NCBI GenBank assembly: GCA_030429735.1
Contig: JAUIET010000001.1
Location: forward strand, 310,001-374,000
DNA length: 64,000 nucleotides
Source: Gammaproteobacteria bacterium
Lineage (GTDB): Bacteria; Pseudomonadota; Gammaproteobacteria; Pseudomonadales; JAUIET01
Direction: 5' to 3'
Below, piece by piece: positions 24,303 through 27,781 of the stretch. The notes beneath the pieces were generated by a model. It was not told the DNA's origin and did no database searches. It worked only from the letters and a program-made list of their open reading frames with translations. The number at the start of each line of letters is the position of its first letter. Position 1 is the first letter of the stretch. The translations under genes and the position numbers were made by a program.

Positions 24303-25427
24303 TCAGCCTGTCATATCGTCGAAGAATTTCTTAACGCCTTCAAACCAGCTGTCTTTGCGCGGTGAATGCTTTGAGCCGCGTTCATCCATCATGCCCCGCA
24401 ATTCCTCCAGCAAATCTTTTTGCCGCCGATTCAAATTCACTGGTGTTTCAACCACCACACGACACATCAGGTCACCGGCACTGCCACCACGCACCGGTAC
24501 CACTCCTTTACCGCGCAAGCGGAACAGTTTGCCGGTTTGGGTTTCGGCGGGGATCTTCAGTTTAACGCGACCGTCCAGGGTGGGAACTTCAAGCTCTCCG
24601 CCCAATGCGGCATCGACAAAGCTAATTGGCACTTCGCAGTACAAATGTTTTCCATCGCGCTCAAAGAGCTGATGATCACGCACCGAAATCTGCACGTAAA
24701 GATCGCCACTGGGGCCACCGCTCGGGCCTGCTTCACCTTCGCCGGACAGGCGAATACGATCGCCGGTATCAACACCGGCAGGAACTTTGACTGACAGCGA
24801 TTTGCGTTCTTCAACCCGACCTTGGCCACCGCACTCCCGACAAGGATCGGATATTACTTGCCCGCGGCCACGACAGTTCGGGCAGGTTTGTTGCACCGAG
24901 AAAAAGCCTTGCTGCATGCGCACCTGACCAACACCACCGCAGGTACCACAGTTGCTGGGCGAGCTGCCGGGTTTGGCGCCGCTGCCATCGCAGGATTCGC
25001 AGGAAACCAGCCTTGGTACCTTGATCTTGACCGTGGTGCCTTTCACCGCCTGCTCAAGATCCAGGTCCAGTGTGTATTGAAGATCTGAACCGCGCTGCGG
25101 ACCACCGCGCGAACGGCCACCACCGCCACCAAAGATATCGCCAAATACGTCGCCAAAAATATCACTGAACGAACCGCCACCAAAACCGCCACCGGCTTGT
25201 GGATCTACACCTGCATGACCGAACTGGTCGTACGCTTGGCGCTTTTCCTGGTCGGATAATATTTCGTACGCTTCTGTGGCTTCTTTAAACTTGGCGTCTG
25301 CGTCAGCATCATCCGGATTACGGTCTGGATGAAACTTCATCGCAATACGGCGGTAGGCTTTTTTGATCTCGGCCTGTCCGGCACCCCGATCGAGGTTCAG
25401 TACTTCATAATAATCGCGTTTGGACAT
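24303..25427 (-). CDS. dnaJ: Chaperone DnaJ
   Basis: [17 protein letters not shown] domain HPD, G/F region, four CxxCxGxG repeats; start placed at 25427. Confidence 0.97.
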
Positions 25428-25523
25428 AGTCTGTTCCGTATCAATCCGCCGTATTTTTCTTTGCAGACGCAGCAACGCGGAGACAAGCTCCGCGTTTGGG
25501 TTCCCATATTCTTAAGCAGGTTC

Positions 25524-25837
25524 GGCGTTGGAATTCAGAGCGCTTTTCGGGACACGCCGTGAACCCATCCATGGGGGCTCGTTGAAAAGGTCCCTCTTTT
25601 CAACGGTCCCGAAAAGCGCTCTGAACCCCAACACCTAAGTGCTAAATTTCTACATTGTGGCACGGAGGAGTCGCCCTCTGTAGCAATTTTATAGACCTTC
25701 AAAAAGAGGGACCTTTTTGAAGAGCCCCCATGGATGGGTTTAAAGCTGGCCCCGAGAGCGCAGCGAGCGCTTTGGGTCCGGCGTGTCTATAAAATTGCTA
25801 CAGAGGGCGACTCCGGTGTTCACTAAAAACAGTGAAC
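25524..25837. repeat. Interleaved inverted-repeat block in the dnaK-dnaJ intergenic region
   Basis: Arms 25534-25553/25606-25625 (20 bp perfect), 25668-25696/25785-25813 (29 bp perfect), 25562-25604/25698-25740 (imperfect, with a 19-bp perfect core), 25551-25559/25779-25787 (9 bp); local hairpins at 25581-25604, 25697-25722 and 25818-25837. Confidence 0.95.

Positions 25838-25852: not shown

Positions 25853-27781
<1,929 letters not shown>

Follow-up and report, generated by a model that had tools for sequence, protein, structure and literature searches.

The spacer between dnaK and dnaJ contains two inverted copies of a single ~110-nt unit. This pair probably belongs to a family of structured dimeric repeats, dispersed over intergenic sites throughout the class Gammaproteobacteria and organised like BIMEs and REPINs. 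The repeat is widespread (Stenotrophomonas, Xanthomonas, Marinobacter, Rheinheimera and others, with up to hundreds of copies per chromosome) and strongly structured on one strand. It also poses a puzzle: its cores can be identical to the letter, whereas the ~30-bp stems that close them are unique to each copy in the genome studied here (the home genome) and yet almost perfectly paired.

Each unit is a three-way junction made of a closing stem, P1 (~27-30 bp), and two hairpins, P2 and P3, with a total length of ~106-118 nt. On the strand that we call the GGA strand, the order is an arm of ~27-30 nt; P2, with the loop ANGGAN; an A; P3, which reads GCC-CCC-AUGGAU-GGG-UUYAC-GGC; GU; and the complementary arm. 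Within the window, the stretch of 64,000 nucleotides that we analysed, a covariance model built from 37 units finds only two, those described here. Unit 1 gives a full match (25632-25527, 112 bits) and unit 2 a partial one (25694-25751, 43.6 bits). The features are:

25853-27781, minus strand: dnaK (Pfam)
start near 25427, minus strand: dnaJ (Pfam)
25521-25814, no strand: the whole dimeric element in the dnaK-dnaJ spacer (unit 1, spacer and unit 2), from repeats, fold and home-genome copies
25521-25638, minus strand: unit 1, whose GGA (functional) strand is the dnaK-dnaJ sense strand
25521-25553, no strand: outer P1 arm of unit 1 (A), perfectly paired over 25534-25553
25606-25638, no strand: inner P1 arm of unit 1 (A'), from inverted-repeat pairing
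25554-25605, minus strand: 52-nt core of unit 1, letter-identical in several other copies with different arms
25580-25605, minus strand: hairpin P2 of unit 1, with loop AGGGAC on the minus strand at 25590-25595
25556-25578, minus strand: hairpin P3 of unit 1, with CCC/GGG and GCC/GGC pairing, bulge UUCAC, and loop AUGGAU on the minus strand at 25567-25572
25634-25668, no strand: facing, inverted inner boxes CCTAAGTGCTA (25634-25644) and TGGCACGGAGG (25658-25668)
25667-25814, plus strand: unit 2, whose GGA (functional) strand is antisense to dnaK-dnaJ
25667-25696, no strand: inner P1 arm of unit 2 (C), from inverted-repeat pairing
25785-25814, no strand: outer P1 arm of unit 2 (C'), from inverted-repeat pairing
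25697-25722, plus strand: hairpin P2 of unit 2, with loop AGGGAC at 25707-25712
25727-25738, plus strand: hairpin P3 of unit 2, CCC-AUGGAU-GGG
25739-25784, plus strand: variant segment of unit 2, in which an additional GC-rich hairpin separates P3 from the closing stem

The variant with the extra GC-rich hairpin recurs in two other copies (C5:50701 and C21:223142) and in the congeneric genome G001 (L031).

A sequence-only reading of this block had described interleaved inverted repeats in the order A-B-A'-C-B'-C', and we find all of them, in that order. The perfect 20-bp repeat is A/A' (25534-25553 / 25606-25625), which lengthens at lower identity to 25521-25553 / 25606-25638; the second perfect repeat, given as 29 bp, is C/C' and is in fact 30 bp long (25667-25696 / 25785-25814); the long imperfect repeat, B/B', lies inside a 74-nt pair (25547-25620 / 25682-25755, 77%); and the 9-bp pair that spans the block is at 25551-25559 / 25779-25787. 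What we do not uphold is the pseudoknot-like crossing. A/A' is the long closing stem of unit 1, C/C' is that of unit 2, and B/B' is mere homology between the two unit cores, which crosses A and C because the block contains one unit twice, in inverted orientation. The A/A' and C/C' helices make up the predicted fold, and the block folds at -194.8 kcal/mol, compared with -116.8 +/- 5.9 kcal/mol for dinucleotide shuffles (z = -13.2); no shuffle out of 100 folds as well. When the A and C arms are masked to let B/B' form, the best fold reaches -87 kcal/mol against -171 kcal/mol for the two-unit fold. It is thus ~84 kcal/mol worse, and B/B' is therefore not a competing structural helix.

The element is not confined to this spacer. 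BLAST of the block against the home genome gave 61 matches in many places, and a search with a core pattern found 25, against none with the reversed pattern as control. Applied to the stretches around these copies, the covariance model finds at least 34 units at 24 sites. All 24 are intergenic, mostly between co-directional genes; examples are dnaK-dnaJ and atpG-atpD (the atp names come from reading the proteins). The facing inner boxes, which overlap the inner ends of both closing stems, recur in most dimers of this genome. The dnaK-dnaJ spacers of five relatives (G001, G005, G010, G019 and G032) lack the element, and the first of these is from the same genus, with a DnaJ that is 91% identical.

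These observations bear on the earlier proposal that the block is a cis-acting switch between alternative folds, selected to set the DnaK:DnaJ ratio. Its position between the two genes and its very stable hairpins would suit such a role, but the five relatives do without it, 23 other sites carry the same element beside unrelated genes, and the crossing helix is not competitive; we regard the switch as very improbable. The search for other genomic copies had been put forward as the check that would decide against dnaK/dnaJ regulation, and the many copies at unrelated intergenic sites support the fallback offered alongside it, a composite mobile repeat. The copy studied here would be a lineage-specific insertion tolerated in the operon spacer, and any effect on DnaK:DnaJ would be secondary, caused by the strong hairpins that the mRNA contains. 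The stems may have such an incidental influence on the dnaK-dnaJ transcript.

The junction itself appears in an alignment of the units. In this alignment, 95.9% of pair cells are standard, where shuffles reach 56.8% and slid controls 36-44% (maximum 43.8%), and the covariation score is 0.997 vs 0.21. Two-sided changes occur in 27 of the 27 aligned P1 pairs; as units were chosen for pairing arms, P1 pairing is partly so by construction, and the in-place comparison of Stenotrophomonas sites given below is independent of that. RNAalifold recovered the junction and extended P3 by GCC/GGC. The arm mismatches that are left over, read on the core strand, comprise 93 A.C and 16 G.T (p = 2e-14), meaning that only the GGA strand tolerates G.U or G.T. 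This bias is present in both orientations to the neighbouring genes (18:3 in antisense units, 13:4 in sense units), with no difference between units that are sense and antisense to the host transcript. Strand-biased mutation linked to host transcription therefore does not account for it, and nor does a need for the host transcript. As the bias favours one strand whatever the gene direction, it points to selection on one folded single strand, which could be folded single-stranded DNA or an independent transcript.

The arms behave quite differently from the cores. Several 52-nt cores are identical within the home genome while their arms are wholly different, and a search of that genome for a second copy or donor of any arm found none: each arm sequence is unique. 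If whole units were simply copied and pasted, identical cores with wholly different, single-copy arms would not be expected. Stenotrophomonas genomes offer two orthologous sites for comparison, in which the flanking DNA is conserved and as many as 11 of 27 arm positions differ, nearly always on both sides. The flanks of the first site differ at 0-3 of ~29 positions; at the second, the flanks of unit A are of two differently aligned types and were excluded from the flank evidence. The arm differences at these sites number either 0-2 or 6-11, a grouping that suggests replacement of blocks in addition to stepwise change. The repeat thus offers a natural system for studying how long palindromes are rewritten in place, and for asking which enzyme or RNA-binding protein reads them.

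One way to keep such stems perfect is by mutation and not selection, with template switching in the palindrome copying changes from arm to arm. The fast turnover of arms in place with pairing kept, and the uniqueness of every arm in the home genome, are what this would produce. A purely mutational process should not, however, favour one-strand G.U-type mismatches in both genomic orientations, and we consider it quite improbable. We also considered the arms as guides or spacers and rejected this: concatenated arms match nothing else in the home genome save one chance 18-mer, and a comparison with phages gave no match.

Beyond the home genome, the core is present in 43 of 369 sampled Gammaproteobacteria genomes, with one match overall for the reversed control. 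Named genomes with the exact core include Stenotrophomonas, Xanthomonas, Rheinheimera, Marinobacter, Microbulbifer, Arsukibacterium, Haliea, Halopseudomonas, Arenimonas and others. The sample maximum is 534 core copies in one gammaproteobacterial genome (G308, L323), evenly split between strands. Plasmids are almost free of the core (3 of 72,556), phages have none (0 of 50,697), and among 2.9 million viral contigs it occurs in two stretches. Pairs of units in the '+-' orientation, 134-350 bp apart, are found at ~35 places in several genera, while '-+' pairs less than 400 bp apart are found at only 2. Rfam 15 gave no match above the gathering score, the only hit being a sub-threshold one to mir-515 at 36 vs 68 bits. 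Full-text literature searches, of partial coverage and thus compatible with an earlier description elsewhere, gave no named family, and the repeat is apparently undescribed so far.

What might read such a folded strand? One answer is an RNA-binding protein. Judged from their sequence, transcripts of the GGA strand would offer two ANGGAN hexaloops to a CsrA/RsmA dimer, so that the copies might serve as local sites or as a distributed decoy; in this scheme the dimeric arrangement would give one sense unit in either direction of transcription. GGA is found in 96 of 101 P2 loops, which lie outside the search pattern; GGA (as TCC) is inside that pattern at P3 and biases the statistics of the P3 loop, and only P2 loop counts were used. 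In the alignment both loops read A-N-G-G-A, at positions that are invariant or at least 90% conserved. Among the loops, CAUGGAUG, CAAGGAUG and CAGGGAUG are examples that look like the CsrA SELEX consensus, RUACARGGAUGU (PMC4347634). Tandem G.A pairs recur in P2, and tolerance of G.U pairs is limited to the GGA strand. Against these points, the mismatch bias is also seen in units antisense to neighbouring genes, inspection revealed no conserved promoter beside the units, and single-stranded DNA would yield equal tolerance of G.T. Like the CsrA/RsmA-binding hairpins of the CsrB/C and RsmX/Y/Z type, the units place GGA in stable apical loops, two per unit. Unlike those RNAs, they form tens to hundreds of dispersed copies and not one dedicated RNA gene; they are also without known promoter or regulation. 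We regard binding by CsrA/RsmA as unlikely. The stronger version of this idea, in which tens to hundreds of chromosomal RNA three-way junctions with paired ANGGA hexaloops would form a distributed CsrA/RsmA-binding network across Gammaproteobacteria, their long stems rewritten pairwise at each site with length and shape kept, is a little more doubtful still. The repeat raises the question of whether GGA-loop repeats load the Csr/Rsm system.

The reading that we favour as the best and most economical, and that is probably right, is a REPIN/BIME-like dispersed element. Here the folded single GGA strand would be the thing recognised, most simply as single-stranded DNA at the replication fork, by an enzyme acting in trans on that strand, in the manner proposed for RAYTs and REPINs. 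The units share with REPINs and BIMEs their short, dispersed, extragenic nature, inverted dimers and many copies per chromosome, as well as lineage-specific subfamilies and hairpin folds with compensatory changes (PMC3116915, PMC2817692); the published account of REPINs likewise has compensatory changes within inverted doublets (PMC3116915). They differ in that a REP is a simple palindrome of 20-40 bp, whereas the unit here is ~110 nt with a closing stem of ~27-30 bp and two inner hairpins, and in that the stem letters vary in every home-genome copy and no RAYT is linked. The Y1_Tnp/RAYT genes checked in the home genome and nine other unit-bearing genomes, a small sample, have no unit within 1.5 kb, and Rheinheimera sp. 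D18 has units yet yields no Y1_Tnp match. A RAYT as the mobilising enzyme is thus unsupported in these genomes, and no candidate for that enzyme came to light. The home genome does contain two near-identical Y1_Tnp (RAYT-like) genes ~3 kb apart (L080 and L081; G000:C5:63653 and 66506), with no units nearby. A clean empty site with junctions was not seen.

Other small non-autonomous elements, MITEs and integron attC sites, are also comparable, and attC sites, like the units here, are folded single strands whose stem letters vary. Unlike MITEs, the dimers revealed no conserved terminal repeats of the kind that DDE elements have. Still, the dimers could be MITEs in the sense of internally deleted derivatives of a DDE insertion sequence with units near both ends, and one such sequence exists. 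Plasmid pDCA (NZ_KU922118; L283, 3937-5508) carries a 1572-bp ISAs1-family element with the terminal inverted repeat CAGGGCAATCGCACTA and what looks like a 10-bp target duplication, ACCCCAACCT; in this element a + unit sits inside the left end and a - unit inside the right end, with the transposase between them. The orientation of this unit pair is the '+-' of the chromosomal dimers. On the other side, dimers of the home genome and of Stenotrophomonas are without CAGGG termini, no relative of the pDCA transposase was detected in the home genome, none of 20 other ISAs1-family loci is flanked by units on both sides of the gene, and two ISAs1-family loci in one unit-rich genome have nearby units on one side only. 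The relatives and the home genome thus argue against a pDCA-type ISAs1 element as the general parent, and we hold an origin of the dimers by internal deletion to be quite improbable.

Within the REPIN/BIME-like reading, the units are distinct from the REPs already known from the same hosts. GTAG- and CGTC-tagged REPs are known in Stenotrophomonas and Xanthomonas (PMC3733652, PMC2817692), where they share genomes with the units described here; the foot of the unit bears no constant GTAG or CGTC tag. Of the REP sequences read in the table of PMC2817692, none is similar to the unit core, and the REP catalogues consulted hold other sequences, the core not among them. The two kinds of repeat can occur together: in Stenotrophomonas dimers of ~400 bp (L180 5900-6315, L254-L259), known GTAG-type REPs are nested in the central spacer.
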